Shown: positions 42,679 to 61,971 of the stretch, piece after piece
How positions within the stretch are numbered: position 1 is the first letter of the stretch
Layout of the letters: every line of letters begins with the position of its first letter
Assembly (NCBI GenBank): GCA_001247695.2
Contig: LGRX02035311.1
Location: forward strand, 1 to 64,000
Source: Cymbomonas tetramitiformis
Lineage: Eukaryota > Chlorophyta > Pyramimonadophyceae > Pyramimonadales > Pyramimonadaceae
Reading direction: 5' to 3'
DNA length: 64,000 nt
Program-made: the position numbers and the translations under genes
The notes under the pieces: generated by a model
What the model was told of the DNA's origin: nothing
The model's input: only the letters and a program-made list of their open reading frames with translations
Databases searched by the model: none

Positions 42679-43700
42679 ATGGCAGAAGAACCAGATGTAC
42701 CAGCTATTAATCCAGATCCATCCACCTGGTTCTTATTTGATATCTTAGGCTCATATGATGCCTTCAGTCGGTTTAAGATACCTAAATGGCTTACTGGTTA
42801 CGCTGATACCCAGACCAGATTTGATGAGATTGGGCATTTTGACAACATCAGTCGTATGAAACCCGGCATGAGTAGATACAGAGACCCAGAGACAGAACCA
42901 CAGGAGCCACGCGAAGATTATACAGAGGATCGTGCTCCACCGGTATTCACAGACCCTGATGATGGTCCAGTACCAGCACCAGCTCCATCTGCACTTGTTC
43001 CAAAGGTGAAAATGACTCCACCTAAGGAATTCAAGGTCGGACAGGATGCTGAGATTTGGTTGGAAACAGTAGACAGATACTTCGAGTTTACCTATCCAGG
43101 TGTGCCAGATAAAGATCTTATTACAGTCTTCCTCACACTCATTCGGAACAATGACAGACATTATTTTCAGGTCGTGGCCAAAAAGCCACATGCCACGTAT
43201 GAAAATATATCAGAAATACATTCCTCAGTCAGTTTGGTAATCCACATAAAAGATCAGTTGCCAAAAAGCATCTTATGGCACTGAATCAGGGAAACCAGAC
43301 CTTTTCAGATTATCTCCGCACGTTCACATCACTGGCTGCATTAGCATCAGTTGATCTGGATGATGCTTTGATAAAGGACAGATTCATCAGCAATATGGAA
43401 TCAGATCTTCGCAAACAGTTCCATCTGAGATTCCTTACGGAAGATGAAAGGAATAACCTGTCGTGGGCCCAGACCACACAGGTTCTGCTCGATTTGAATT
43501 TCGTAGTTCATTCGAAGCAATCAGAAACCCTTCACTATAGGGGGCAGAAGGAACAGTCAGGAGGCCCAGTCAGAAAAGACAAGGACAAAGGCCGTGGCAA
43601 AAAGCCATATGACAGATCCAATCGGAATTGGAATCAGAATCAGAATGGCAATCAGAATCAAAATGCCAATCAGAATTCCCAGAGGAATAAAGGGAAAGGA
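42679..43700 (+). pseudogene. gag: Gypsy-type gag, copy 1 (frameshifted and truncated)
   Basis: Starts MAEEPDVPAINPDPSTW at 42679 after TTTGTCTTATAG. The conserved Gag core is visible (FKVGQDAEIWLETVDRYFEF, YLRTFTSLAAL and DRFISNMESDLRKQF). A frameshift near 43200-43270 splits it into two frames. The C-terminal Asn/Gln/Lys linker breaks off at about 43700, where the LINE begins, so the zinc knuckle and all of pol are missing. A second copy of the same family, about 90% alike by eye over the overlap, starts at 58177. Confidence 0.75.
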
Positions 43701-44267
43701 GGAAAAGAACGTCTCAGCGTCCGAAGGGCGCGAGCACTGGAAAAAAATGTTTTTTCGCGCATATTATTTATGATAATTTTTTAGGTTTGAGTAGACGTTT
43801 TTCCTAGAATTTTGTCGACCAGAAGGTATTTTTCGACCCCTGTTTTGCTTCTTATAGTGAAATATGGTGTCCTTTGCTTCAAACCCTAAAACTTGCGGTA
43901 TGATCTTGCTTTAGCTTGTATGTTTTCTTGATATGTGATATGAAATTTCAGTACCCAGCGACCTGAGTTTTTTACGAAGGTCCTGGGGAAAGAGCAACAA
44001 AACGCCTGGAGAAGCTGGAGAGCCTTGAGCTCTCCAGTGAGGAACCAAAACCGTAAAGCGCAACATTACGCATAACTGAAAGAACAAAAGAGTAACAACA
44101 TCAGAACTATAACGAGCTTGATTTTCGCGTTTTTGATAACTTCACACAGGAGAATTATGAACGAAGAAGGACCCACAGATATGGACTCTTTCACTCAGCC
44201 AGAAACCATTCAGCAGAAATATGACTTTATGAGGAGTATGAATTCAGACGTGATCCGCGACAGTGAT

Positions 44268-44275
44268 AAGTGGAG
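44268..44275. repeat. 8-bp target duplication of MITE 2 (left)
   Basis: AAGTGGAG, repeated at 45292-45299. Confidence 0.9.
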
Positions 44276-45291
44276 CAAGGCATGGAATCGGTTGGAACAA
44301 GCAGTATCGATAGTTTTTGATTATTCCAAATTTTCAATTGATTAATAGTAATATCCTAAATTGTCCTATCAATAAATTGTGATAAAAGAAGTCAGCTATC
44401 GATTGATTGTGATTTTTACATTATATTATCAATTGATTGCAATTCTAGCAAATGCACATCAATTGATAGTGATTCCTACCGAGGCAATATCAATTGATAT
44501 GATACCCCAAAATTTCTACCGAGGCTATATCAACCAAGGCTCGGTATCGTGATTTTTTGAACTTATCAAATAACGATGAATAAGTCAAATTTTATAATCG
44601 AACGATAACGATAATTTTTCGAACCTATCGACTGAGAACGATAACGATACCTATCGATAACATTCATGATTACCAATTGCGCCCTAATGGGTATCAGATT
44701 TTGGGTTTTACCAATCCTATCACAACAAACAATATATCATTGTGTTCGTCTATGAATGAGCTGTATCCACGTTTACCCATCTTGATTCACACAGGCAGTC
44801 GATAGTTCGTCAATAGTCCTGACACTCCGTCACACTGTAAATTGAGGTCCTCAATGCTACCAAATCGAGTCGAGAGCCTCCAACACACCCCCCGCCTCCA
44901 ATCTGAGGATGGGTGTCATTTGCATGTTTATTGGTTCATCTCAAACACACTTCAGCGAACCCAAATTAGAGACGAATGAAAAGCCTAGAACTCAAGAATG
45001 AAGGATCGGTTAGGGAGTTATATATTGCATATCGATGTGTGATTGCGTGTCACGTGCAAATATCAATCGATTCTGATATGTCCCACGGTCACGATCAATT
45101 GATTGTGATAATGCAAATCGAGAATCGATCGATGGTGATAATTCGGATTAGGCATCAATCGATTGTAATTCTCGGAGGTGGGTATCAATTGATTGTAATA
45201 TTTTGATTGTGCATCAAATAGGCATCAATTGATTCTGATATTCTGATATATCGATGGTATCAGAATATCAAACAATCGATTCCATGCCTTG
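44276..45291. mobile_element. hAT-type non-autonomous element (MITE 2)
   Basis: 1016 bp with inverted ends CAAGGCATGGAATCGGTTG / complement (one mismatch) and an 8-bp duplication AAGTGGAG. Termini resemble MITE 1 (CARGGCAT..ATCGGTTG). The interior is rich in ATCAATTGAT words and has no transposase. Confidence 0.9.
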
Positions 45292-47132
45292 AAGTGGAGC
45301 GCTAAACTGGACCAAGACACAGTTTCATCTCTCATCTATGCCACTTTCCTTGCGAAAGCAGACGCAGTCTTCGCAGCACGAAACATTCCGATAAATCACA
45401 AGAAGTTTTTCGGAAACATCGAAAGGCCATCCACTATGTGCACTTTCCTGTGGAACATTTTCAGACACGCGACAAATATGTGCTCAGTGAAAGGAAACGA
45501 AGTTGTCATTGAGTCAGCAGCAGCAACCACAAACGTCGAGAAACTAATCAAGTACACTAGGAACACAGTTCAGAGGGAAAACATCAGAAACATCGTTGAA
45601 ACACTCCTGGAATATGACCTGTACTTTCCCACACTGGAGTCAGTTCAGATACAAGTAGACGAACGCATTGCAAAACAGGCATCGGAGCAAACACAGCAGT
45701 CCCCCTCAGCCTCTGGACTTGCAGAAATCGACCTGGGTGCACGCGAGGGAGCACAAGCCGAAGGTGACCAAAACGAGGACACCTGGGAAGAAAGAGAAGA
45801 AGCAGGCGAGTACGACGGAATCGACGGTCTGACTGGACAACGAGAAGTGTCGCTAGTCAGCCACGAAGAGGAAGCGGAATTCGACTTCGCATCTCTTCAA
45901 ACAGCAGTGGACTACTCTGAGACGGTGAAGAAAACCGAAACCGAAATCGAAGGCCACGAAGGTGACTTGGAGAACGAAGACTTCCTTCAGACGCTGAAGA
46001 TCACGAGGCACAACGTCCAGAACTCTGCGCGCTTCACTGGACGCGAGCTTAGCGAAGTAAGAAGGCAGTGCGAGGAGACCCTGACCAGGAAGCATCTCGA
46101 CGTTGGCTCATTGGCGGTTGACGGTCTGACGCGAAAGGTGGACGCATCGGGTGTTGCTAAGGTAAAAACCTCCCTCTCACTTCACGTAAAAAAGCATTCA
46201 CACAGATACCGCTCTTGCATTAAGCTCCATTGTTCTTTTAAAGCTCGCATCTCTACAAACATTACGAAACCGCGCATTCTAACTAGAGTTAATACGCAGA
46301 CTCCCTTCATCAAAGTTCAGCTAAAGAGCGAGGAAGAAGCGACTGCAATCCTCGAGCTGGGAATTCTTCTGGTGGACGGACAGCGCTTTAACATCACGCC
46401 TAAATCTTCCAGACTGACTCGATTTAACCTGTTCCTGCGTGCTTCCGCTCCCAATCTTCAGGTCTCAACGGATAACATAGTCTCATTCCTGCTCACGACT
46501 CCATTTTCAAGCTTTGTTAAGCGGGTGGTCTTCCAACAGACATTCACAGAACATCCAGGAAAGGGCAGAGGATCACGGCTGGTCAGAAGGATCTACGCAG
46601 TACTCAGGCCCCCAGTTGCAGCAGCACCGGAACCGGCAGTACCGGACATTCAAAATCCGGAGCACGCAGTTTACTTCATTCCACTTCAGTACATCTACAA
46701 CCCTGTTGGAGTTGTCCTGATTACCCAGTGCAGTGCCCACGAGTGTTTCAAGTGTGCCCCATCTCCCAAAAGGTTCGGTCATTGTTCCAAGAACTGTATG
46801 GACAGCGGGAAAGGTAAGGGAAAGGGGAAAGGATCTGGTAAAGGAAAAGGATCAGGAGGAGGAGGCCCCCCAGGATTCCCACCAGGAGGCCCTCCAGGAC
46901 CGCCGAGTACCCCCACAAAAAACTCAGCCAACTGGGAAGCAGCAAAAGCTAAAGCATTAAAGAGAAAGCTCACCCCCTCAGCTCTCAGCCCTGCCCACAA
47001 GATCCCCGCAGGAGGCAGCCAAAGACAACCCCTGACACAGGAAGGTGACGGAGGAATTAATCTTGCTGAAGGTAGATACTGAGAAATTGGACTGTTAAAC
47101 CTGTTTCTTCTCTCTGAACACTCTCTCAGACT

Positions 47133-48620
47133 TTGTGCTTTCAAGCATCTGATATGCAAGTGACCCTCACTAGCATCCCTAAAACCAGAAGAGTCAATCT
47201 CTTCCTTGCTCTGCTCATTGTGACCCACCGGCCAGCAGTAAATTTAAGTATGCACAGCACATATTTACACTCCTGCTCTTGCTTTGCTTTTCCCTTTACA
47301 ACTGCTGTTCACTCCCCACAGTTTGTCTCACCACACAATACATATTTCCCTCGACTTCAAAAGCTCAATCTTGAACCAGAGCACAGGCATACAGATAGCT
47401 CAAAGTTCACTCTCAAACTTGCATTATATAGACACCTTCATCATAGGGACCCTCCCGTGTGCGGCACACCGTCACTAAATAAATACAAAGCACACACCTG
47501 GCATAATAATAACCTGCCGCTTGATAAACACTTATGCAGTGAATACAGTTCCTCACATAGCTCACCCTCCGAGGCACCCGAACCAACAAACTTATATGAA
47601 AACCTGCACCGGTTGTCAAACACCAAAATATTAATAAATAACCACACACGGTTCCTAGCAAACTTAAGAGGACGGGAAACCAAAGCAGGAAACACTTCAC
47701 AATATGCAGGCAACTTAACACGGCATACTGTTAACTCAATGCATTATACAGAAAGTTTAATAATACTTACACGATGCCTGGAAAACAACATGCGGTCAAC
47801 AAATAACACAAATAAACCCATATGCTTTCCGAAGCGGGTTGTTACAAACCTGAAGCGGGTCACGGTAAACTTAGCTCGGTGTTTAAACAACTTAGAACTG
47901 AATGCAATACACCGTAATAGTACTGATAAAATAATCTTACGAGAGGCTCGGGGGCACGGACACATGTTTTTAGGGGAAAAGGCGGCTGTAAGCACAAAAA
48001 TAATGGGAAACCCTAACCTCTTGAGTCGACACCTAGTGAATACGGGACGGGTGGAAGTGCGTAGAAGTAAAATGGGGCGAAAATATTTCACACAATGCTT
48101 ATATATGACAAAAAGGGTTAGTGGGGAAAAAATAAAGGCAACCGGACAACCTTGGACCGGAAGCGAATTGCATGAGGCACAATTCGTTAAAAATCGAAAA
48201 TTTGCAAAAATGAGCCTAGAACCAAAAAATTTCAGGGAAGGGACCCGAGGACATATACGAAACCATGTGCGAAAGAGGAATGCCCAAATAAACGGTATGG
48301 TAGCTGAGGGGAGGCAACAAGTGGGTGTAACGCGTAACACGGAGAGCACAATAATGTTCAGAAACCACGGGAGCGGGGGAAGCGAGGTGCGCACTGGTCT
48401 TATAAAAGACACGCGGAGTGTAGTCAAGCGGGCTACAGATAAACCAATACGGTGCTCGGAAATAATACAGCGATATATTGCAAATCTAACGCGGTGGAAG
48501 AAAAACTTAAAAAAGTATACCTTCAATCTGGTATGGACCGAAAGGGCTGTTAACTCAACACAATATATGTATCTTATAGTAAGCCTAGCATGGTTTGAAA
48601 TATATTTTAAATGGAAATAA
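47133..48620 (+). CDS. Middle ORF of the LINE, unknown function
   Basis: 495 codons between ORF1 and ORF2. It overlaps the ORF2 start by 10 nt (ATGGAAATAA contains both the ORF2 ATG and this ORF's TAA). The first about 190 residues are Ser/His/Pro-rich. The rest is rich in Arg, Lys and Asn with repeated NLxR/NxTR patterns, suggesting RNA binding. The opposite strand also has a long ORF over part of it, so some of the openness may reflect composition. If translated, the overlap would fit termination-reinitiation into ORF2. Confidence 0.4.
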   Translation: MCFQASDMQVTLTSIPKTRRVNLFLALLIVTHRPAVNLSMHSTYLHSCSCFAFPFTTAVHSPQFVSPHNTYFPRLQKLNLEPEHRHTDSSKFTLKLALYRHLHHRDPPVCGTPSLNKYKAHTWHNNNLPLDKHLCSEYSSSHSSPSEAPEPTNLYENLHRLSNTKILINNHTRFLANLRGRETKAGNTSQYAGNLTRHTVNSMHYTESLIILTRCLENNMRSTNNTNKPICFPKRVVTNLKRVTVNLARCLNNLELNAIHRNSTDKIILREARGHGHMFLGEKAAVSTKIMGNPNLLSRHLVNTGRVEVRRSKMGRKYFTQCLYMTKRVSGEKIKATGQPWTGSELHEAQFVKNRKFAKMSLEPKNFREGTRGHIRNHVRKRNAQINGMVAEGRQQVGVTRNTESTIMFRNHGSGGSEVRTGLIKDTRSVVKRATDKPIRCSEIIQRYIANLTRWKKNLKKYTFNLVWTERAVNSTQYMYLIVSLAWFEIYFKWK

Positions 48621-51600
48621 AAATAGATAAAGCTATAAGCGGCAGCATAATTATGACATATTACATAATGAGACACCTCTTGAGATGTGAGGAAAATATT
48701 ATTAAAACACGAGCGGAAATGCAAACAACCACTTACGGGCCCACTATCATGCTTCTTCATATAATGGCGGAACTCAGCAGAATGAAGTTGAACCCTAAAA
48801 AATATTTCCCGGGACCCAGAGTCATAATACACCTAGCCCACAAGAGACCTAAGGCTTGCAAAGGGATAAGTAAGAGCGCCTTGAAATACATGATTCAAAA
48901 CCCCAAAACGGCATGGCTTTGGGAGAGAACACGGACTCAAACTGCAAAGAAACCCAAAATGAATTTACCTTCAAGAATAATGAAATATAAAACCCACCAC
49001 AAGAAGGATAACGATACTAAACAATATAATATTTCGGAACCCGAGCAGCTGTTAAGCGGTGGAGCAAGCACCGAAGATAACGCAGTAGTTGAAACCACAA
49101 TGGCCACGGAATCACTCCTTTCAGAAAAGGGGTGGTTAAATGCAACTCATGTTGGTGATGCAATGAAAATACGGGACCCGAGTACCATAGCCCCTATGGA
49201 CCTTACAGACATGATGCTCAAAATGACAGGGGAGGACCAAAAACTCACACAACTCATTAATAGCAGACTCAAGAAATATGGCCACACACAAATAGGCGTG
49301 TGTGACAATATACATTGGCGTCTTATAATGATTCGCTCATCATCACCTGGGAAAATAGAAGCTTACATATATGATCCCTTTGGAGATAAAGCTGAAAGAG
49401 AAACCATTAATATGATTGAGGCAGCACTCAAAACCTGGTTAAAAAATTTCATAACCATTACTGAATATAATGAATTCACAACTACCACTAGCAAGGAAAC
49501 ATTTCAAACAGATACATACAACTGTGGCACATGGGTAGCAAAAACTGCCTTCAGATGGGCACAATGGAACAGAGGCTTGCACCAGACCTCATTTTTTGAA
49601 TACCTAAAATCTGATTTATATATTGGGGAGTATGGCAACAAAACGATGCAAAAGGAAATACATAAATACCGATTAGAAATGAGGGAAGAAATAGGGCTGC
49701 AGGTAAAGAATACCCGTAACACACTGGAGCTCAAACACTTTGAGCACGCTGGAAATGACGCCGCAATCAGCGGCCCTAATATGACCTTACCTCCCCACCA
49801 CATCCTCACACGCAGAGGTGCCACAACCAAAAAGCAGATAGAAACTCTGATAGAAACCTTCAGACTGAAATGGAAGACACACACCACTAATGAAACAATA
49901 GTTTCAGAAGCCATCGAATCGCATAGGAAATATCATCACACCTCGAACACGGATAACACCAACATTCAAATTCATCTTCTTGTGGCTAAGGACATATGGT
50001 CAACTGCAGTCCACATCATTCCAGAAAAACAGATTATTCACTGTGAGTTTGATATCCCTAACAATAAACACCAGAAAGACATTTCCACACTTTTTCCTCA
50101 AGACCTGAGGGTGCACCGCATAACCCTGAAAATGGGAGTACACCCGAATAACATGGGGGTTTTCAATTTTACACTAGCCCACAAAGTCTATCACATCCTG
50201 CACAACACTAAATTCTTCTCAGCAGCACAATTGAACAGAGACCTACTATACGAACTTGAAAACCTAAACATTAGAATTCTACCACAAACGGGCAGAGAAG
50301 CCAGGATAATCAAACACGAAAATAACAAAGCCATTTCGACCATACGACAATCACTGAGAACTCACCTTCCGAAAATTGATGCACATCCAACAAAGCCAAA
50401 TTCTGAGCACAAAGACTGTAAGTCCATTCACACTGCTTATAATCACCTCATCTCAGGCAAAGGAAGGCCTTCCTGTGAACCCCACACATATGGATACCGC
50501 AGGAAACACTCTCATAAACAAAAGAGAATAATCCGTAAAACCAAATGCACAAACAAAATCTTTGATATCGAGAACATTTATGACGCAGATGGCAGATGCA
50601 TACTACAAAAAGCAAAACATAAAAACGCCATGAGACAGTCAGAAGAAATAGACCGACTCACTAAACTACAACTAGCACAACACTCTAACAATTTGATTAT
50701 AATGGGTATGAATATGAGAGGCCTCCGACACCACAAAGAAGATAAAGACAGTTTAATCAAGTTAGAAACAATCTGCAATCTTTTAATCGACGGACGGGCT
50801 GATATAATATGTATATCAGAAACCAAGGTAAATACTGAAAACCTTGCATTAATCAAAACCCTAATGACACAAAAAGGAATCCAATTTCGCACGTCTCATG
50901 TAAATGAGAGAGCTTCCATTGGTTCCATGATCCTATGGAATCCGAAGAGTTTGCCACTATCCACCTCGGTCACCACAATCGATGGAGATGCAAAGAGAGC
51001 AGTAATGACCAAATTTTCAGGAAATAATGGTTTTGAGCTCTACATAGCCAGCGGTTATATGAATGATGCTACACTAGTAGAGGAACAAGTGGAATTATAT
51101 GACACACTTACTGACTGGGCAGGTAGGTCAGGAAATAATCCAAAAAAGGCCTACGTAGAGATAGGTGACAAAAACTGCACCATTACCCCAAATCAGCGGG
51201 TGTCAGGTGGAAATTACATGTCGTATCAAGAACATGTCGAAAAGAATAAGCATCTTTTAACCTATTTCAACAATGACAGATGCTCACTCAATGAACTGAT
51301 AATGGACCGAAATCCAAACACGGAAATTTTCACACATGTCATATCCAAAAACTCAAAAGCAAAACTCACCCATATCATGGCCAACACAGCTATGGCAGAA
51401 ATGACCGTTAAAACAGGATGGACGGAGGAAAACCCTTATATCATCTCCGACCACGGGATAGTATGGGCTGAATTTAAGCTCCCTAAAATCGACACCAAAC
51501 CGCAGATTTCCACCGATACAACTTTGCCAACACCTAGATTTAATGGTGCCAAGGAAACCACACATGATGAGTACCCAGGGTACCCAATTAGAATGACAAA

Positions 51601-54600
51601 CAAAAATAAGGGTACAAAAAGGAAAATAAACAGGAAAGATATTGTAGGACTTCTCGAAGCAAACGGATACAGCACAAACGAACTTGTGCACGCGTGCATC
51701 AATAAAAACAAAGCTAGAACCGCTATCAGCACCATTAAGGGTGACACCACTGATCTTGATCTTAAACGGGATAATATCGACGGCAGCCCCATTACAGTGA
51801 GTAAGCTCATAGCTAAAAATAAAGAGGCAGACAATATAGAACAATGTCTAAAATGGCACAACAAACCCAAGGAATGGTGGATTCACCTTAATAGCCCATG
51901 GCATGCAGCTCACCTACTCTCTAGAGGAAAGGGGATGCCGGAAGGTGGTCTCAACTTAGGCCATAACGACAAAGATAACATCTGGCATATAGGTTCGCCT
52001 CACCTTTTAAATAAGAAAGATGTTAATGCCTATCTCAAACGACACCTGTCATTCAGCTCACTGGAAGTTAAGAAAATCACGAAATCCAACACAGATGAGC
52101 ACATGACCAGCTGGAATATTCTCCTACAACCCCATATGCCTGCTAAATTCTGGAACCTGTACGGATCTGAGATGCATTCGGAAAAAATAGATTGCACCGC
52201 CCATTTATTCCAATACGCTACAGGCTGGGTGTCTTACACTGAAAGACTACATAACACACTCGAAATGGAAAATGGATCGGAAGCAACTAGAAACGGCGGC
52301 ACTGGCCTCAAGGAAATGCACCCTGACGCGACATGGGATACCCTGCACAAATTGGCACATCAGGCGGCAAGTGACGCCTTTGGCACCAAGAATCTGAACA
52401 TAGCTGGGAGGTCTGAAAAACCATCAGCAGTATCTAACTATATATACAAATGGCTAAACACAGTACGCCGCATCATCAAATATTTGGACACGAGAACTCA
52501 TGCAAGCAACATTCCTAAGCAAGCCAAAAAGGCTGCCCGCACGCTACCTTTTGCCTCGCTCAAACCCAAACACAATGAAACGGCAGCCACATGGGGATCA
52601 CGTCTGCATGAAAATTATGTAATAATCAGAAATGCTTTTCAGAAAAGCAGAGACACTGACATTGAACGACGCAATCTCCGAGAAAAGGAAGCCTTGCAGC
52701 ATCTTTTCTCAACTAACCTTTCGAGGTTTCTAGACACAGTCATGGGAAAGATGAAACCTACTGAAAAAGGTGCAGCCGCTACCCCAGGTAGTGATGGAAA
52801 GATACCTGAGACAAAGACAGAAAGACTAAACACAACACTAGATGAATACAAAAATAAAAAACTATTTTCTACTAACCCGAATGAGCCAGATGAACTCCCA
52901 CAGTGGCTCACTGACATTCTAAAGGACAGCCCCAAAATCCCCGATACGGCCGCTGCTAGACTACTGACAGAAATCACGCACAAAGAACTCCAACAAGCAT
53001 ACTCGGACTGTGGTATCTCCACAGCACCAGGACCCTCAGGAATGAGATACTCGCAGTGGATCAAGGGCCCAGAAAATTTTCAAGAGGTTACTGTCTCACT
53101 TTTTAACCACATTCTTATAACTGGGAAATTTCCAAAGAGTGCAAAATCTGGAGTCATCCTTCCAATCCCTAAAAATCCCTCTGCACCATGTACAATAGAT
53201 AACTCTAGACCCCTCACAATGTTGGAAACGGGTCTTAAACTATTTAACACAATAATTGCTAACCGTCTCAAAACAATACTTAACACTCACCCCATTCTCT
53301 TTCCCATTCAAGATGCGTTTCTTCCGAATAAAAACATAGATGACTCACTTCAAATTCTGAATGAAGTAATTTCGGATGCCAATAGATACGACAAAGACCT
53401 TCACGTAGTTTACCTGGACCTCAAACAAGCATTTGACAGAGCTGAATTCTGGATGAGCAATTTAGCGCTGAGAAAGCTGGGACTCCCATCACAAATAATC
53501 AACATCATCTCAGACATTACCAATGATGCTTCTAGAATGGTACTCACTGAAGAAGGCCTCACGGATGAATGGTCCCTAGAATGTGGAGTCCCTCAGGGAG
53601 AAGTTTTGAGCCCACTTAGGTTTGTAGCCATTATGGACATTCTGGCAATTTGGTTAGCAAAAAGAGCAAACGGTGTAAACCCGACAGGATCCACATATGG
53701 ATATGAACTGAACTCGGAACGCCATAGACCAGACAAACCAGGAAATAATGTTATTCCTCCCTCCCAAAACCTATTAGAAAAGGACACCACTTTAAATATC
53801 TTTGCACGGTTCTTTTGTGATGACATCATTCTCGTGGGGAAAACTAAAGACGAAGTTCAAGACATGCTAGGTGTAGTTAATGAATTTATGAGCTTCATTG
53901 GTATTCCCATCAATGTTAAGAAATCCAAATACTCTTACAGAAAGCGCATTAAACCTCAGGGCAAAACAGTAACGCGATATGACCCGTCCGATGATTTACT
54001 CATCTCAGGGGGTCACCTGGAGCCCAATACAAATGACCCAAGTCCTTCCATTGATTCGAAATGGATACCCCCTGAGTCACCAGAATTCCTCGATTTCTCC
54101 AACAGCAAAGAGGTAAACAGATATCTCGGAGTATGGTTTGCACTAAATGGGGAATGGGACAAACAGGCGGAAATCCTTATCGACAGACTTAAATCTACTC
54201 TCACATCCATCCAACTGCAACACATGACTCTACACCAGCTAAGATATGTTATAAATGCGGTTGTAGTTCCGAGGATGGCATACCCCCTTAAAGTTACCTC
54301 AGCAATTGCCAACTCCTCAAAGAATGTCGCAATTGAATTAGACAAAATGATAGCTTCGTTTATAATTAAATATCTGGGCTGCCCAGTTGACACCAATCAC
54401 CAAATAATCTGGACAGCAGTCTGCCAAGGCGGGTACGGTATCGATAGTGTCTTTGATGTTGTAACCGCGTCGTGTATCACCGAAACTATGAACACCCTGT
54501 GTTCTGCGGATGAACACGAATATTGGCAACACAACCACACGGACCGTATCACTGATCCCCACCTCATCTCACTATACCGTAGAAATAGCAATCTATGGCT

Positions 54601-57600
54601 TAAAATAATAATTCAAAACATGAACAACGAAATGGGTAAAAATGTTATATCGGGTTTCCCCTTATCGCACTATGCAACCTACAGCCATACTAAAGACAAA
54701 CGTTTTAACTGGTTTAGGCGTACAGGTCACATTATGGCAAAACTTGGATACGCTATTGACTCTAAAAATTACCCTGAAAATGAAGCGGGTGAAAATACAT
54801 TAATCACCACCCTTCCCAGACAACTCTACATGTCGAGGAATGTTACCTCCGCAATACAAAAATACAACCTCAAGCACACAGGTTCCTTTCTAACTCCTTG
54901 CGGTGGAATGTTAAAAAACTGGCAAGAAAGTAAATGTTTTTTCAGGCTGAATGGCAGTAGACCCCCTGGATGGCTAACCGAAATCGAAAAGGAAATGCTT
55001 CAAAACCCCGTAGATTTGGACCCACAGGCCAGATATGTCAAAAAACAATATAGAGACAACATAGTACCCCCCGACACGGGTGAATTTCATTGGAAAGGGA
55101 ATGGTGACCGAAATTCCATCTCTCTTATTCACATTACCAATATTGACTTAGAGGCCATGTCAATACAATATACAGAATACAGTAACAATGCCATAAACCC
55201 TAATGTCTTTGTCAGAATCAAAGGTACCAACAGTCTTCAATACGACTTTGAATATAGCATCACCAATGACGGTTGCATCCTAATTCCAGCAGGTTCTATT
55301 TTTGAATACAATGACCATATGGACCCGCCCTCTTCTGTCCTTGCTACAGTTAGTGATATCAACTCACACTATGATTACATCTCAGACAGACAGTATGAAA
55401 CCATTATTGCCAGAATGAAAAACAAGACTGCGGAGGAAGAAAGTGAATACAGCTGCCCCAGCGACTCGGAAGAAGAATCCACCTCCAACGCCGAAAAGAG
55501 CAAACAAATGGAAGACTATGATATGGCAAGCGATGGTTCCCTTTTTGCTGGAAAGAAAACAGCATGCAGTGGGGCAGCATATGCTATAAAAAACTTTGAC
55601 AACGGGATGCCACTTGTACGGAAGATGAATATCCCCCCCTCAAGAACTTTCTCCGCACAGGGGCTCCTTATCAAGGAGGATATCCAAAACCCGAGTAGCA
55701 CATCTGCTGAAATTGCGGGACTGCGATTTCTACTCACAGAACAAAAAGAGAAACTCCTCAAATCTATTACTCCAATGGTACATGCCATTGACTCTATGGC
55801 AGCAATATCTGCGGTAACAAAGGATGGCAGGTCCATGAGTGCTCGGGACAAACTACGTGAAGCTAATCGCAGAGATGTGCAGGCTGTTCGCCTACTGCTA
55901 GAAGAACTTGGCTTCTACAGTGAAGGAGACCACAGTAAAATCATCCTTAAATGGATCAGGGGTCACAATAATGACAAAGTCCATGACAGAGTGGACCGTA
56001 CTGCTAAAAGAGCCTCATTCAGAGGGGGCTGTTTTGACATTTCTCGCTACGACCCTGCCGAGGAACTACCCTTCTCATTATTCTTTTTTGAGGTCCCTAT
56101 TTTAGGCGATATACGTAGTCACATCAGAAGAATTCAACGACTCTCACACTATCATAGTTGGAGAACCCTACAGTCCCAAGGGAAGCATCTGAGAATGCTC
56201 AACGAGAATAACACCGCCCCCACCAAAGATATTTCCAAAATGACACCTAAAGCTTTCACCGCTTCTAGAAGTAGAGAACTCCTGGGTCTTCAAGCCTCTC
56301 CTGCACGCTTATTTAAACTGGGGAAAATCGGGTCCGAAAACTGCCCCTACTGCCAACAGAATACAAAATGCACCTTCGAACACATCCAACTTGAATGCCC
56401 AGGACATAATGATAGTTTATATAATCTTAGAACAACCCAAGATATCGAACTAAGGAAAATCATCGCTGAAGAAATCTCAGAAAAACCTAAACTACTAAAC
56501 CCTGGAAAGGGTACCACATACATCAGAACACAACCATCGAAACTTTTTCCACTTGCTGACCTAAGACAGGAAATGAATGAGGAATTATACTTACACGCTC
56601 TCCCGGAAGCTAGCATGTACCGTCCATCAAGTTCAAAAAAGAATACCATTGCCGTGACCGCAAAGCCTGAAGTGGACCATGTTAAGGGAACAATTAAATA
56701 TCCCGAACTCCAATATGTTCAAAAGAAAGAGTTTTGGAAACTTTTGGCTTGGCACCGCCTTTCCAACAAAGCAGTCCCATGCTCACTTGCGGAGTACTCG
56801 AATAGGGCACACGATATCCATGAAGCCCTCAATGCATGTAAGTTTGAATCGGGAGACCCTAAAAACTGCTATGCAATAAGAAGAAGCCTCTTAGATATTT
56901 TGGTGGATGACAGAAACCTTGACAAAAACGGCTGTGAACTTTTCTCCAACCCACTAAATGCCCACCCTAGAATTTACTCGAGAAGATGCATACCCACCAC
57001 TAGAATGAAAAAAGCCCTCAGGCCCTTCTGTTATCATGGGAAAATCGGTTTTGATGGCCTCGCTTGGGATGCCTACGTGGACCCGTTAACAGGCATTGGC
57101 AGAATAGTTTACGGAAATCCCCCCTTTGATGGAAAGGATAAGGGCAAATCTTCGGCGGTTATGACTACCTTGGAAATGGGACATAAAGCGGCCAACACTG
57201 TACCCGGATTTTCAGGAACATGGATTCTTCCACTGTCTCCCAAAAACCAAAAAAGATGGTTTGATAAAGGATTTAAACTTGTTTTCAGATTCCCGCATAA
57301 CACTATTCCATTTATCCCACATGGTTATTGGACGGGTGATGACCCCTACGTCCTCCCAGGTGGCGGATGCTATAAGGATGATTTCTCGGATGTCGTTATC
57401 ATAGCTATAGACAGTGCACCCAGCGATACTCAACCAGCCTTTGACTGGAGGCCTACACAGAAAAAGATTGCTAGATGGTTCCTCAATGTCCTCCCTAAGT
57501 CCAGAGTCACGGAGAGGAGACTAGAATACACTGGAGTTAGCCCTGATATTTGGAATGAAGTTCTGAACGAAAGGGACAACGTACTCCCTTCTTCGTTGTG

Positions 57601-57997
57601 CCCATGGCCCACCCAAGACCCCCCCTATCATCAGAATGGTGCTGAGCATTATTATGGCGGTCACCATGACACGACAATCACCAACGTAGCTTCTAAGCCC
57701 TTCATTAGCACCGTGAAATGGCCCACAGCACTTACACTCATGGGGTACCTCCCTCCTCTTTTCGGTACTGTCCTCAACACGATAGGTGTTCCCCGTGGCA
57801 AGATTAAACCTCTCCTTAAAAAACTTTCAAGAATCTGTAGGCAACACACCAGAAATAGGCGAGACTTGTTTCTGTTAAACACCCCCACCACCTTGAACAC
57901 TGACCCGCATACAGTTGACATCCTGGGCAATGAGACCATGACTGAAACAGAAGCTGTGCAAAAAACAAATGACTTTCTTCAAACCCTCCTGCAATAA
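48611..57997 (+). CDS. LINE ORF2 polyprotein: C48 protease, APE endonuclease, RT, RNase H, CCHC, PCIF1-like methyltransferase
   Basis: 3128 residues, uninterrupted. C48/Ulp1-like cysteine protease at about 173-320 with GWLNATHVGDAM, His235 (NIHWRL), Asp255 (YDPFGD), Gln299 and Cys305 (QTDTYNCG). APE-type nuclease at about 695-960 with MNMRGLR, SETK (Glu737), GDKN (Asp853, Asn855) and SDH (Asp947, His948). Reverse transcriptase at about 1450-1790 with YLDLKQAFD (Asp1603) and FCDD (Asp1737/1738; Cys replaces the usual Ala). RNase H at about 2303-2470 with Asp2308, Glu2367, Asp2394 and Asp2462. Zinc finger C2578-C2581-H2591-C2596. C-terminal domain at about 2740-2960 with CELFSNPLN, GNPPFDGK (Asn2836-Phe2839) and WILPLSPKNQKRWF, resembling the PCIF1/CAPAM m6Am methyltransferase. 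The start overlaps the middle ORF. It would cut, copy and insert the element by target-primed reverse transcription. The protease and methyltransferase roles are inferred. Confidence 0.85.
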   Translation: MEIKIDKAISGSIIMTYYIMRHLLRCEENIIKTRAEMQTTTYGPTIMLLHIMAELSRMKLNPKKYFPGPRVIIHLAHKRPKACKGISKSALKYMIQNPKTAWLWERTRTQTAKKPKMNLPSRIMKYKTHHKKDNDTKQYNISEPEQLLSGGASTEDNAVVETTMATESLLSEKGWLNATHVGDAMKIRDPSTIAPMDLTDMMLKMTGEDQKLTQLINSRLKKYGHTQIGVCDNIHWRLIMIRSSSPGKIEAYIYDPFGDKAERETINMIEAALKTWLKNFITITEYNEFTTTTSKETFQTDTYNCGTWVAKTAFRWAQWNRGLHQTSFFEYLKSDLYIGEYGNKTMQKEIHKYRLEMREEIGLQVKNTRNTLELKHFEHAGNDAAISGPNMTLPPHHILTRRGATTKKQIETLIETFRLKWKTHTTNETIVSEAIESHRKYHHTSNTDNTNIQIHLLVAKDIWSTAVHIIPEKQIIHCEFDIPNNKHQKDISTLFPQDLRVHRITLKMGVHPNNMGVFNFTLAHKVYHILHNTKFFSAAQLNRDLLYELENLNIRILPQTGREARIIKHENNKAISTIRQSLRTHLPKIDAHPTKPNSEHKDCKSIHTAYNHLISGKGRPSCEPHTYGYRRKHSHKQKRIIRKTKCTNKIFDIENIYDADGRCILQKAKHKNAMRQSEEIDRLTKLQLAQHSNNLIIMGMNMRGLRHHKEDKDSLIKLETICNLLIDGRADIICISETKVNTENLALIKTLMTQKGIQFRTSHVNERASIGSMILWNPKSLPLSTSVTTIDGDAKRAVMTKFSGNNGFELYIASGYMNDATLVEEQVELYDTLTDWAGRSGNNPKKAYVEIGDKNCTITPNQRVSGGNYMSYQEHVEKNKHLLTYFNNDRCSLNELIMDRNPNTEIFTHVISKNSKAKLTHIMANTAMAEMTVKTGWTEENPYIISDHGIVWAEFKLPKIDTKPQISTDTTLPTPRFNGAKETTHDEYPGYPIRMTNKNKGTKRKINRKDIVGLLEANGYSTNELVHACINKNKARTAISTIKGDTTDLDLKRDNIDGSPITVSKLIAKNKEADNIEQCLKWHNKPKEWWIHLNSPWHAAHLLSRGKGMPEGGLNLGHNDKDNIWHIGSPHLLNKKDVNAYLKRHLSFSSLEVKKITKSNTDEHMTSWNILLQPHMPAKFWNLYGSEMHSEKIDCTAHLFQYATGWVSYTERLHNTLEMENGSEATRNGGTGLKEMHPDATWDTLHKLAHQAASDAFGTKNLNIAGRSEKPSAVSNYIYKWLNTVRRIIKYLDTRTHASNIPKQAKKAARTLPFASLKPKHNETAATWGSRLHENYVIIRNAFQKSRDTDIERRNLREKEALQHLFSTNLSRFLDTVMGKMKPTEKGAAATPGSDGKIPETKTERLNTTLDEYKNKKLFSTNPNEPDELPQWLTDILKDSPKIPDTAAARLLTEITHKELQQAYSDCGISTAPGPSGMRYSQWIKGPENFQEVTVSLFNHILITGKFPKSAKSGVILPIPKNPSAPCTIDNSRPLTMLETGLKLFNTIIANRLKTILNTHPILFPIQDAFLPNKNIDDSLQILNEVISDANRYDKDLHVVYLDLKQAFDRAEFWMSNLALRKLGLPSQIINIISDITNDASRMVLTEEGLTDEWSLECGVPQGEVLSPLRFVAIMDILAIWLAKRANGVNPTGSTYGYELNSERHRPDKPGNNVIPPSQNLLEKDTTLNIFARFFCDDIILVGKTKDEVQDMLGVVNEFMSFIGIPINVKKSKYSYRKRIKPQGKTVTRYDPSDDLLISGGHLEPNTNDPSPSIDSKWIPPESPEFLDFSNSKEVNRYLGVWFALNGEWDKQAEILIDRLKSTLTSIQLQHMTLHQLRYVINAVVVPRMAYPLKVTSAIANSSKNVAIELDKMIASFIIKYLGCPVDTNHQIIWTAVCQGGYGIDSVFDVVTASCITETMNTLCSADEHEYWQHNHTDRITDPHLISLYRRNSNLWLKIIIQNMNNEMGKNVISGFPLSHYATYSHTKDKRFNWFRRTGHIMAKLGYAIDSKNYPENEAGENTLITTLPRQLYMSRNVTSAIQKYNLKHTGSFLTPCGGMLKNWQESKCFFRLNGSRPPGWLTEIEKEMLQNPVDLDPQARYVKKQYRDNIVPPDTGEFHWKGNGDRNSISLIHITNIDLEAMSIQYTEYSNNAINPNVFVRIKGTNSLQYDFEYSITNDGCILIPAGSIFEYNDHMDPPSSVLATVSDINSHYDYISDRQYETIIARMKNKTAEEESEYSCPSDSEEESTSNAEKSKQMEDYDMASDGSLFAGKKTACSGAAYAIKNFDNGMPLVRKMNIPPSRTFSAQGLLIKEDIQNPSSTSAEIAGLRFLLTEQKEKLLKSITPMVHAIDSMAAISAVTKDGRSMSARDKLREANRRDVQAVRLLLEELGFYSEGDHSKIILKWIRGHNNDKVHDRVDRTAKRASFRGGCFDISRYDPAEELPFSLFFFEVPILGDIRSHIRRIQRLSHYHSWRTLQSQGKHLRMLNENNTAPTKDISKMTPKAFTASRSRELLGLQASPARLFKLGKIGSENCPYCQQNTKCTFEHIQLECPGHNDSLYNLRTTQDIELRKIIAEEISEKPKLLNPGKGTTYIRTQPSKLFPLADLRQEMNEELYLHALPEASMYRPSSSKKNTIAVTAKPEVDHVKGTIKYPELQYVQKKEFWKLLAWHRLSNKAVPCSLAEYSNRAHDIHEALNACKFESGDPKNCYAIRRSLLDILVDDRNLDKNGCELFSNPLNAHPRIYSRRCIPTTRMKKALRPFCYHGKIGFDGLAWDAYVDPLTGIGRIVYGNPPFDGKDKGKSSAVMTTLEMGHKAANTVPGFSGTWILPLSPKNQKRWFDKGFKLVFRFPHNTIPFIPHGYWTGDDPYVLPGGGCYKDDFSDVVIIAIDSAPSDTQPAFDWRPTQKKIARWFLNVLPKSRVTERRLEYTGVSPDIWNEVLNERDNVLPSSLCPWPTQDPPYHQNGAEHYYGGHHDTTITNVASKPFISTVKWPTALTLMGYLPPLFGTVLNTIGVPRGKIKPLLKKLSRICRQHTRNRRDLFLLNTPTTLNTDPHTVDILGNETMTETEAVQKTNDFLQTLLQ

Positions 57998-57999
57998 TT

Positions 58000-58176
58000 T
58001 GCTGGAAACAGCAGCTCAGGCAGTGAGGACCCGCTGCCGACGGTGAAACAACGGATGACTAAACTCGGATATACAAACGATATATACCCGAGATGAGTGA
58101 CACAGGCTGACCACCGAAGATGACATACAGGAATGACACTAGACTGTACGAACTAGTCGTAGTGCCAATTCCAGCA
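58000..58176 (-). repeat. Solo LTR related to element B, reversed
   Basis: On the minus strand it starts TGCTGGAATTGGCACTACG and ends GCTGTTTCCAGCA, matching element B's LTR over its length with many changes. The flanks (TAATT left, ACAAT right) do not match, so there is no target duplication. It joins the LINE 3' end directly to gypsy gag copy 2. Confidence 0.8.
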
Positions 58177-58180
58177 ACAA

Positions 58181-58825
58181 TTCCATCTTAGATTCCTTAC
58201 GGAAGATGAAAGAAATAACCTGTCGTGGGCACAAACCACACAGGTTCTGCTCGATTTGAATTATGTAGTTCATTCGAAGCAGGCAGAGACCCTACATTAT
58301 AGGGGACAGAAGGAACAGTCAGGAGGTCCGGTCAAAAGGGAAAAGGATGATCGTCGTGGCAAAAAGTCATTTGACCGTGGCAATCAGAATCGTGCCAATC
58401 AGAATCAGGCCAACCAGAATTCCCAAAATAATAAAGGGAAAGGCAAAGGCAAAGGCAAGGGAAAAGGAAAAGGAAAAGGATCGCCATCATCTCCTTCCCA
58501 GTCTTGTCAGCGTTGTGGTCGTACAGGTCACATAAAAAAGGATTGCTTTTCCACAAGAACAACATATGGAAAATCCGTACAAGGCAATCCTCCAGCTCCT
58601 AATCCTAGTTACAATCAGAACAGAGGACAGCAGCAGCAGAATAATCAGGGTGGTAAAAGTGAGTCTAACAAACTCCTAAAAACAGCCAACACCCTGGTTA
58701 AGGAGCTCCAGAATCAGCAGAGCATCAATGCAGCAGTTGCAACTCCAGCTCCAGCATCAGCTCCAGCTCCTCAGGGAAACTCTCCGGGTACTGCACAAGT
58801 ACCAGTGATGAGGATTCCCCGATAG
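58181..58825 (+). pseudogene. gag: Gypsy gag C-terminal part, copy 2
   Basis: Resumes the Gag core (FLTEDERNNLSWAQTTQVLL in an upstream extension of the frame), then an Asn/Gln/Lys linker, a long (GK)n stretch and a standard zinc knuckle CQRCGRTGHIKKDC (C-X2-C-X4-H-X4-C). It ends RIPR at 58825. The protease follows in another frame, either by programmed shift or by mutation. Confidence 0.75.
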
Positions 58826-58914
58826 ATCAGCTTGAACATGCCACTGAAGCAAGTGGCCGGGTTGAGAGTATCTCAGAAGAAGTCCTATCCAGTCTGACAC
58901 TTCAGTTCCAGCAG

Positions 58915-59607
58915 ATGGATACTCCCTCAGAACACATCGCACAGATGCAGTCACAGACAGCACAGCTGAAATCACAGAAGAAGCTGTTGTTGTACAAAGG
59001 GAAAGTATATGGACAAAGTACTCACATTTTGGTAGATCCAGGAGCTACATCGTCATTTATCGACAGACAGTTCGCTTCTCAGCTTGGTATATCACCAACA
59101 GACTCATCATCATTCTCAGTGGGGTTGGCTGGAGGAAGCCAATTACCCTGTACATCCTATCTTCCCAATGCTACATTCACGCTGGGTAAGTATAAGGATA
59201 CAGAAGATTTCTACATCATTGATATGAAACCCTTCACAGTCATCCTGGGACAGGATTGGTTGGAAAGAAGAAATCCACACATAGACTTCCACTCCAAGAA
59301 TATGACGATCACCAGGAAACACTCATCAGGTTCCAGTGTTCGTACAGTTATATCCAGAGTTGAACAGACTCCAGATTCAGATGACCTTCCTGAAATGGAA
59401 TTGGTCAGTGCCACCACTATGAGAAAGCACCTACGACGTATACGATCCAGTGGGTCTGCTGAAGAAGCCGTAGCTTATCGCTTTTTTCTCTCAGAGGTCG
59501 ATGGTGAACTAGTCATGGCAGCAGCAGACTCAGACACCACTATGGAAGACCCAAAAGTCACAGCAGCACGTGATCTAGTCAGAGAAGACTTTTCAGATAT
59601 TTTCTAG
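58915..59607 (+). pseudogene. Gypsy aspartic protease
   Basis: Pepsin-like retroviral-type protease with active-site motif VDPGATSSFID, then FTVILGQDWLERRNPHID, which matches the conserved GxDWL region. It ends at a TAG codon (59605-59607) after SDIF, where the gypsy frame should continue EDLPAGHRPERF toward RT. It would normally cut the Gag-Pol polyprotein. Confidence 0.75.
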
Positions 59608-59723
59608 GAGGATCTTCCAGCTGGCCACAGGCCAGAACGGTTTGAAGGTGGATATCATCGCATCAACATTGAACCTGGGCACGCAAGCCATCATCACAGC
59701 CAGTTCGTACCATTCCAGTACCT

Positions 59724-61395
59724 ATGATGGAGGAGCTCAAACGACAAATCATCAAATATGTCGAACTGGGTATCCTTCGTCCGTCATCATCACCATATGG
59801 ATGTCCAATCATTTTCGCTCCTAAGCCAGGGGGGAAGTGGAGGATGTGCTGTGATTATCGAGCCCTTAATAACATCACTATAAAGGACACGTATCCACTG
59901 CCACCTCACGATACTCTTCTTGAACAGCTTAAAGGTGCACGATGGTTTAGCAGATTTGACTTCAATCAGTTCTTCCATCAGATTCCTATAAACCCATATG
60001 ACATTCACAAAACAGCAATACGCACCAGATACGGTTCCTATGAGTGGACAGTAATGCCTTTCGGGTTAACTAACGCTCCTGCGACCGCTCTCCGTGTTGG
60101 AAATCGAGCATTCTTTGACTTCATCGATCAGTTTTTGGTCATTTTCATGGATGACACCATAGTGTACAGTCCAGATTTTGACAGCCACGTGAAGCATGTT
60201 CGACAGTTCTTACAGCGCTGCAGAGATCATCAGTTCTACATCAGGCCTTCTAAGGTTGAGTTGTTCGTCAGATCCATCGATTTTATCGGACACCATATCT
60301 CTGAGGCAGGCCTATCCATCATCGAAGACAGAATCCGTGCAGTCATGGCTATCCAGCCTCCAGTGTCGTATGGTCCAACCGTTGGTAAACAGCCTCTACG
60401 CCGTATGGCTAAAGATGGCAAGTCATCCCTTCGGTCATTCTTGGGCATGGTCGGCCAGTTTAGGAGATTCATACCAAAGTTCTCCAAGATTGCCGAGCCG
60501 CTCAATCGTCTCCTTAAAGATAATGCAGAGTTTGTCTGGGAATCTGAGCAGCAGCAGGCATTTGATAATCTCAAAAGTGCCATCTGCCATGCTCCAGTAC
60601 TACAACTTCCAGATCAGAAACTGCCATCTATTATGGAGGTCGATGGATCAGGCACACACGTTGGTCAAGTGGTATTACAGGATCAAGGAAAAGGTATGAA
60701 GCCATGTGGCTATCACAGCGTCACTCTTTCTGATACACAGAGACGCTGGCCTATTCCTGAGATCGAGCTATTTGCCATTGTGGAGGGCTTCCGATTCTTT
60801 CGCCACATCTTGCTGGGAGCTCCTGAGACTATTGTTCGCTCAGATCATCAGCCACTGGTTTATTTCCAGTCTAAATCCACATTAAGCCCCAAACAGGCGA
60901 GGTGGTTGGATGAGCTCTCCGAGTACAACTTCCGAATATAGCACATTTCTGGCGAGAAGAATAAGGTTGCAGATGCACTCACCCGTATTTCTACACTCTT
61001 TGAACTCACTGATTGTCTGAAACATATAGACGTCAGCGAGGTTCCAGTCATTGACATACCGTCTACAGATTCTACATTCATTGCTCTTATATCTGCATCA
61101 TCAGCTCATCAGCTTCACGACATTATTATATCTCAGTATGATCGTGACACATTTGCACAGACTATATTATCTAAGCTGGCATCATCGACATCATCACAGT
61201 CAGTCAGCAATTTCGAGCTCATTCAGGGGTTGATCTATCGCAAGACCATATATGGCAGACAGCTTTACATTCCACCTACTGCCAAAGTTCCTACAGATGA
61301 CGGTGAGATCACACAGCTTCGCCACATTCTACTTCATGAGTGCCACTCAGCCACTATTTCTGGTCATGTAGGCAAAAATCGCATGCTCCATCTAT
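59724..61395 (+). pseudogene. pol: Gypsy reverse transcriptase, RNase H and integrase start
   Basis: RT motifs: LRPSSSPYG, WRMCCDYRALN, FSRFDFNQFFHQI, MPFGLTNAPA, and the catalytic FMDDTIVYS. RNase H follows (MEVDGSG, EIELFAIVEG, RSDHQPLVYF). A TAG at 60939-60941 interrupts just before HISGEKNKVADALTR. The integrase zinc-binding block begins (HECHSATISGHVGKNRM) and breaks off near 61395. A frameshift between 59690 and 59724 separates it from the protease. Confidence 0.8.
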
Positions 61396-61400
61396 TGCGT

Positions 61401-61971
61401 ATCTCGCGTTCACATTCGCGCTTCTTTGAGGTTGCTAGGTTGCTAGTTATGTTTTGCACAAGGGAATCTTTAATGCGTTTTCCGCTTTTTACTAAGTGTT
61501 GGTTCTTTCCTTTACTTTTCAGATCGGCTGTTTTGGAGAAACCCTAAATGGAGAAAATCGACCACTTCGAGTACTTCATGAGCTTCAAGCTTCCCTTCGA
61601 GCGTGCTAGGTTGATAGATTGTTTACAATCGTAGTGTTGGAACTAGAAATCGTACGAATAGAACGTTATTTTGCGTATTGGTAGGATAGAGATGAGTAGT
61701 CCCAATTGTATCCCATCGTGCCAAGCTAGCTACACTATCGTATTAATATGATTGTATTAAACATGCTCGAGTGTTCCATGCGTATGCGTGATGTGCTAGC
61801 CTTCTCATAGCATACGCATTGTGAACACACTTTATGTAAGTAGCACACATTTTCGCAATCCTCTAGTGATATTGTGCATATAGATAGGCCTCGTACACGC
61901 GCACCAGAGCTGTACCCACCATTGCGTGCATGTGTACCCTTTTCGAGTACACATGCACCTATAGCGTACTC
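61401..61971. other. Unassigned sequence after the gypsy remnant
   Basis: Includes TTACTTTTCAG followed by GATCGGCTG and a tiny ORF starting MEKIDHFEYFMSF at 61548, which could be a short exon. Otherwise unrecognised. Confidence 0.35.

Follow-up and report, generated by a model that had tools for sequence, protein, structure and literature searches.

A long interspersed nuclear element of the chlorophyte Cymbomonas tetramitiformis with a probable PCIF1-related methyltransferase-like tail

PCIF1/CAPAM (Pfam family PF12237) is the cap-specific N6,2′-O-dimethyladenosine (m6Am) methyltransferase. Here we describe a long interspersed nuclear element (LINE) of the chlorophyte Cymbomonas tetramitiformis (GenBank assembly GCA_001247695.2) whose polyprotein ends in a domain that is very probably related to PCIF1, judging by fold models and a second LINE family that bridges the two. 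The element lies in the first 64,000 nucleotides of contig LGRX02035311.1 (forward strand), the whole of which was analysed and is called the window below. Capture of other enzymes by retrotransposons is already known, and includes cytosine DNA methyltransferases (DNMTs) and Dam-like enzymes (PMC5890265, PMC6338049) as well as Ulp1-like proteases (PMC4640811).

NeSL and Trichinella Utopia LINEs also have a Ulp1-like protease N-terminal to the reverse transcriptase (RT), and oomycete Utopia shares an RNase H with the window element, but NeSL and Utopia use a restriction-like endonuclease (RLE) where the window element has an apurinic/apyrimidinic endonuclease-type (APE) nuclease, and they differ also from its methyltransferase-like tail; the main text of that source nowhere uses the word 'methyltransferase' (PMC4640811). 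Dualen/RandI LINEs, compared here by domains and without an RT tree, combine APE and RNase H as the window element does, although Dualen also encodes an RLE (PMC4640811). SymbioLINE-Dnmt and SymbioDIRS-Dnmt3 are likewise LINE and DIRS elements with a captured methyltransferase under purifying selection, but their enzyme is a structurally unrelated cytosine DNMT, which in the LINE lies mostly in an open reading frame (ORF) upstream of the RT ORF (PMC5890265). DIRS elements with a Dam-like methylase also join a retrotransposon to an adenine-N6 methylase, but they belong to the DIRS class, not to the LINEs, and their enzyme resembles bacterial Dam instead of PCIF1 (PMC5890265, PMC6338049). Among the open-access papers listed by full-text searches we saw none that describes a PCIF1-like domain in a LINE, or its combination there with APE; subscription papers and Repbase lay outside the scope of this search, and priority is not established. 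We know of no PCIF1-like domain in Dualen.

The window polyprotein is the product of ORF2, and the putative methyltransferase forms its tail:

48611 to 57997, plus strand: ORF2 polyprotein, 3128 aa, uninterrupted
56723 to 57565, plus strand: predicted PCIF1-like adenine-methyltransferase domain, residues 2705-2985
56936 to 56959, plus strand: ELFSNPLN block, counterpart of PCIF1 ECFASPLN, with ELFSN at residue 2776
57116 to 57127, plus strand: NPPF motif, residue 2836

With PCIF1/CAPAM the tail shares a predicted methyltransferase fold and an E-x-F-[AS] block (ECFASPLN or ELFSNPLN) followed by NPPF, the motif of the PCIF1 catalytic loop, and it differs in apparently comprising the methyltransferase part only, inside a LINE polyprotein. 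When two AlphaFold models of the tail were passed to a structural aligner, the top six rows for each were all six solved PCIF1/CAPAM entries, at 8-16% identity, and residues 1-60 of the first model aligned with the part of PCIF1 directly preceding the methyltransferase core. The lead of PCIF1 over Dim1/KsgA in the second model was 0.2 to 1.4 Z, partly tied, and the Foldseek matches of the first model were to class I methyltransferases in general, such as KsgA and Erm, with a best E of 9.6e-4.

The second support comes from the same genome (851.7 Mb, 25745 contigs), where a search with PF12237 (150 of 2094 candidates scored) yielded 151 matches, almost all of them close to 77 bits (cut-off 31.1). 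Among the matches listed, twelve lie in frames of 3529-3533 codons, one of which is L039:

G000:C9077:8900-18800, minus strand: L039, a second LINE family (family B)

The single frame of L039 has RVT_1 (3.5e-30), PCIF1_WW (6.7e-20, 71.8 bits), RNase_H (1.7e-16) and Exo_endo_phos (2.6e-15) above cut-off, together with two C48-like protease stretches, in the order protease-APE-RT-protease-PCIF1-RNase H. The genome holds two layouts: the PCIF1-like domain follows RNase H in the window element, whereas in L039 it precedes RNase H and comes after the second protease. The two RTs are ~21% identical. Comparison of the L039 domain with the window-family tail by hhalign gave P 4.7e-4 and a score of 33.1 that none of 600 column shuffles reached (maximum 26.3); this comparison, of window family with bridge family alone, is the only one among the profile comparisons to survive the shuffle control. 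A F-[IL]-P-x-x-[HY]-W stretch is common to both, and plain BLAST to the L039 domain is in weak agreement (0.042 for the window, 0.003 for the relative P0003 described below). Since the window tail matches L039 and L039 matches PCIF1, the relation runs through L039 and not from the window tail to PCIF1 directly. A PCIF1-like domain had been proposed in a preliminary description of this DNA, made from the sequence alone, and both fold models place it closest to PCIF1; its likeness to PF12237 is sub-threshold or weak in direct comparison and stands by way of the L039 family, which passes the cut-off.

Elsewhere in the genome, at L065 (G000:C9884:400-1300), a plus-strand frame (148-423) contains a PCIF1-like stretch YCSAFQDVDGPFGSRG...GSFEANPPF that is identical to human PCIF1 at 29/54 positions and to the L039 LINE domain at 17/54; by its sequence it is likely an exon of the host's own PCIF1. 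The dinoflagellate spliced-leader pattern has no exact match; peridinin-chlorophyll protein (PF02429) gave no match, but neither did its control, so this second result carries no information.

A number of results weigh against this reading. The fold models are of moderate confidence (mean predicted local distance difference test, pLDDT, 61.0 and 63.6), and PCIF1 is missing from the best 50 of 898 Foldseek rows. No window-family tail passes the PF12237 cut-off (best E 0.029, 14.4 bits against 31.1), two of nine giving any (weak) signal; Pfam finds no PCIF1 match in the whole window protein or its tail, and a sequence-profile search of the PDB did not find PCIF1. Alignment of the window family to two PCIF1 sequences gave an hhalign Prob of 1.3, and to 12 vertebrate PCIF1 sequences P 0.065, with a co-linear arrangement of the E-x-F-[AS] block and NPPF; 11 of 300 shuffles scored as high as the direct PCIF1 comparison. 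A joint profile of PCIF1 and the bridge family gave P 0.0053, and after column trimming a score of 17.1 that was reached by 77 of 400 shuffles, so that the outcome depends on column choice and we put no weight on it. Only vertebrate PCIF1 appeared among the best 120 of 793 proteins in the PCIF1 search, and these profiles are therefore without protist PCIF1s. The polyprotein has no Pfam match to a WW domain, and the helical cap-binding domain was not detected in the tail, no profile of that domain having been used. Finally, the L039 family has NPEY rather than NPPF in all 14 copies sampled, so at least one LINE family keeps the domain without the canonical motif. It could be argued from the PF12237, PDB and trimmed-profile results that the NPPF likeness is chance and the tail an unrelated domain, but the fold, the bridge family and the co-linear E-x-F-[AS] block and NPPF make this very unlikely. 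A missing profile match together with a fold of another kind would have spoken against the preliminary description; the predicted fold is that of a methyltransferase, and a profile match is reached through L039.

The tail is shared by other polyproteins. A search of public data with the window tail returned P0002 and P0003, and one with the P0003 tail returned P0003 again and six more (P0004-P0009); these eight and the window protein form the nine-polyprotein set. All eight have RVT_1 and tails 31-37% identical to that of the window (in the tail alignments the start of P0005 is cut ~ten residues short and P0007 is shorter), and P0005 (3571 aa) has Peptidase_C48 (1.6e-6), Exo_endo_phos (3.5e-8) and RVT_1 (4e-26) above cut-off. 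ELFSN and NPP[FY] are invariant in 9/9 polyproteins, two of them with NPPY, and ELFSNPLN with NPPF is invariant in 14/14 same-length full copies of the window family (window included) and in 12/12 further copies. Because the pair is kept in all polyproteins and copies read, it is not due to chance. The nine tails have no match among phage families, viral contigs contain no relative of the tail or of PCIF1, and no relative was found in GTDB contigs; P0001, P0005 and P0007 have no Pfam match to a tyrosine recombinase or Dam profile up to E 1.

The methyltransferase domain of the window family is under purifying selection. Among the 14 same-length full copies – 13 fetched copies besides the window, a further one, L017 (3129 aa), being excluded for length – the ratio of non-synonymous to synonymous substitution rates (dN/dS) in the methyltransferase is 0.053, against 0.077 in APE, 0.110 in RT, 0.128 in RNase H and 0.238 in the protease, with overlapping bootstrap intervals, and lower still (0.034) between RNase H and the methyltransferase; non-synonymous variation touches just 3 of the 285 methyltransferase codons. 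These copies were chosen with intact frames, which biases against disabled ones, and share ancestry, so that pairs are not independent. In the L039 family dN/dS is 0.058 (14 copies, 95 codons, dS 0.257), and these low values indicate that both methyltransferase-like domains are maintained.

That the tail is an active N6-adenine methyltransferase is likely. Alternatively it could be a binding module for the cap or for RNA tethering, serving cis preference or translation. In favour of this, family B keeps the fold (dN/dS 0.058) despite NPEY in 14/14, and a catalytic-dead Pcif1 in Drosophila figures in the title of a cited reference. A pure binding role would have no need of NPP[FY] in 9/9 polyproteins or of NPPF in 26/26 own-genome copies, and we regard it as improbable; tethering is to be considered for the L039 family, which keeps the domain without the canonical motif. 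Tentatively, LINEs may have captured an mRNA-cap N6-methyladenosine (m6A) methyltransferase long ago and put it to use on their own RNA, so that the element would carry a cap-editing enzyme and mark itself for translation, stability or escape from sensing, with NPPF kept in the window family and the domain of the NPEY family perhaps serving as a cap or RNA tether.

The explanation that we favour overall, with moderate confidence, is an APE-type LINE with a PCIF1-related tail acting on its own RNA. LINEs show cis preference. The polyprotein would remain with its own mRNA in cis, the tail would N6-methylate an adenosine of that RNA, the C48-type protease might free the domains or trim SUMO-like tags, and APE, RT and RNase H would then perform target-primed reverse transcription. 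Were a LINE protein with an adenine methyltransferase to remain bound to the mRNA that encodes it, the simplest target would be that RNA, and we give this substrate somewhat less than an even chance; the cap-adjacent adenosine in particular is possible but doubtful.

PCIF1 binds the cap via a helical domain, and activity has been reported on hybrids and DNA too (PMC10544176). As that domain is not evident here and such activity is on record, an RNA:DNA hybrid or the cDNA has to be taken seriously as a rival substrate: an active enzyme could methylate the hybrid or the new cDNA at the insertion site, for example marking copies or affecting silencing. The place of the domain, behind RNase H in a polyprotein whose activity yields RNA:DNA hybrids, and the Dam-like adenine methylases of DIRS elements (PMC5890265) are in keeping with this, which we nevertheless hold to be rather unlikely. 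If the enzyme instead acted in trans, on RNAs of the host or of viruses, and so altered host translation or defence, this would agree with the normal activity of PCIF1 on cellular mRNAs (PMC10544176) and with the antiviral defence proposed for retrotransposon accessory domains (PMC6338049), but nothing points to host targets and the host seemingly has its own PCIF1 (the exon-like stretch at L065), making this quite improbable.

The remainder of the polyprotein contains the enzymes of a LINE:

49268 to 49579, plus strand: C48/Ulp1-type cysteine protease, residues ~220-323 (HW...YD...QTDTYNCG), phmmer match to the L039 protease (iE 2.7e-10)
50708 to 51505, plus strand: APE-type endonuclease, residues ~700-965, PF03372 (Exo_endo_phos) 0.0053 in the window, below cut-off
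53165 to 53959, plus strand: RT, residues 1519-1783, PF00078 7.6e-22, FCDD at 1735-1738
55508 to 56035, plus strand: RNase H, residues ~2300-2475, from its motif, with weak PF00075 matches in relatives
56342 to 56398, plus strand: CCHC-like zinc finger after RNase H, from C2578, with weak zf-RVT matches in relatives

The single 9.4-kb open frame of the preliminary description is confirmed (48611-57997, 3128 codons), and its view of a LINE polyprotein with five enzymes agrees with the motifs, the relatives (P0005, L039) and the structure of the copies. The sole Pfam match above cut-off in the window protein is RVT_1 (7.6e-22, residues 1519-1783); protease, RNase H and methyltransferase have none, and because Pfam recognises only the RT the other domains were tested through relatives. 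The protease matches both L039 protease stretches by BLAST (2.2e-9 and 8.9e-8) and has the H-D-Q-C order (H235, D255, Q299, C305); PF02902 has no match in the window protein, and relative P0005 passes. APE motif residues are present (E737/D853/H948), the RT matches R2 and LINE-1 structures (2e-23 to 3e-16), and when P0001-P0003 are aligned, RNase H residues D2308/E2367/D2394/H2452/D2462 and the cysteines of the zinc finger are the same in all three. The catalytic roles of the listed protease, APE, RT and RNase H residues are those we presume from family knowledge.

The element as a whole, a copy of family A, extends upstream of ORF2:

43710 to 58000, plus strand: LINE element, family A copy; 5′ junction common to L013 and L015, 3′ break against L002-L008
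44157 to 47082, plus strand: ORF1 (722 aa in copy L015; window version interrupted by an insert)
44276 to 45291, no strand assigned: 1016-bp insert in ORF1, missing from L015, with 15-bp inverted ends CAAGGCATGGAATCG and an 8-bp flanking duplication AAGTGGAG, ends read by eye
47133 to 48620, plus strand: open frame, its stop overlapping the ORF2 start at ATGGAAATAA (48611-48620)

In a search of the genome with the tail, all scored copies (88 of 5329 first-look candidates) were 99-100% identical, and 15 of the 88, window included, have a frame of 3128-3129 codons; the copies are young and near-identical and the family has been recently active. Similarity of the window copy to others ends at 58000, so it is missing the ~400-nt 3′ untranslated region (UTR) of other copies. 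That UTR and a (TTA)n end, followed by divergence, were seen in 8/8 other copy ends (seven loci), and a second set of ends gave the same 3′ UTR and (TTA)n in 8/8, one copy being in both sets. A common 3′ end with (TTA)n and then diverging flanks is the usual product of target-primed reverse transcription. Short target duplications were seen by eye in two of six copies printed, and no long direct repeat, and hence no long terminal repeat (LTR), was found at the element's own ends. With a LINE-type RT and APE in one ORF, no LTRs, a common microsatellite-tailed 3′ end and variable flanks, the window element is an APE-type LINE that carries the polyprotein in ORF2.

The 1016-bp insert resembles a non-autonomous hAT element; as it splits ORF1, the window copy as a whole is not intact, though ORF2 is. 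The overlap ATGGAAATAA of the ORF1-side stop with the ORF2 start suggests, from its sequence, coupled termination-reinitiation, and copy L010 has a single 1476-aa ORF1 reaching the same overlap. Across L009-L016, ORF2 is almost identical but is preceded by at least three different ORF1/5′ modules, which looks like a swap of 5′ halves through recombination or template switching. The first ~30 nt of the element in L009, L010, L011 and L012 form a short perfect hairpin (GTTCGCC..GGCGAAC), then CTGAAAATGT. A self-cleaving 5′ ribozyme would be an argument against a capped transcript; none matched at the window 5′ end, and the 5′ end of L012 has no Rfam family above its gathering score, three matches lying far below theirs.

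Pieces of LTR retrotransposons flank the LINE, at 42679-43709 and 58163-61547 of the window. The right flank encodes aspartyl protease, RT and RNase H. On the left, a gag-like stretch is recognisable solely through its 215-bp, 86% repeat in the right flank, a divergence too great for a target duplication made by the young LINE. At 14782-16518, on the minus strand, a 579-aa frame matches bacterial Ig-like models (Big_13, 4.5e-13), which is unusual for a eukaryotic window.

If LINEs carry a relative of the mRNA-cap methyltransferase, a retrotransposon may edit its own epitranscriptome. It becomes testable whether m6Am, or m6A on its hybrid or its cDNA, is installed by a parasite of the genome, and with what benefit; the young copies, almost identical to each other, can be set against the sister family, whose motif has changed, as a natural contrast. 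The findings suggest that such a parasite may modify nucleic acid for its own ends.

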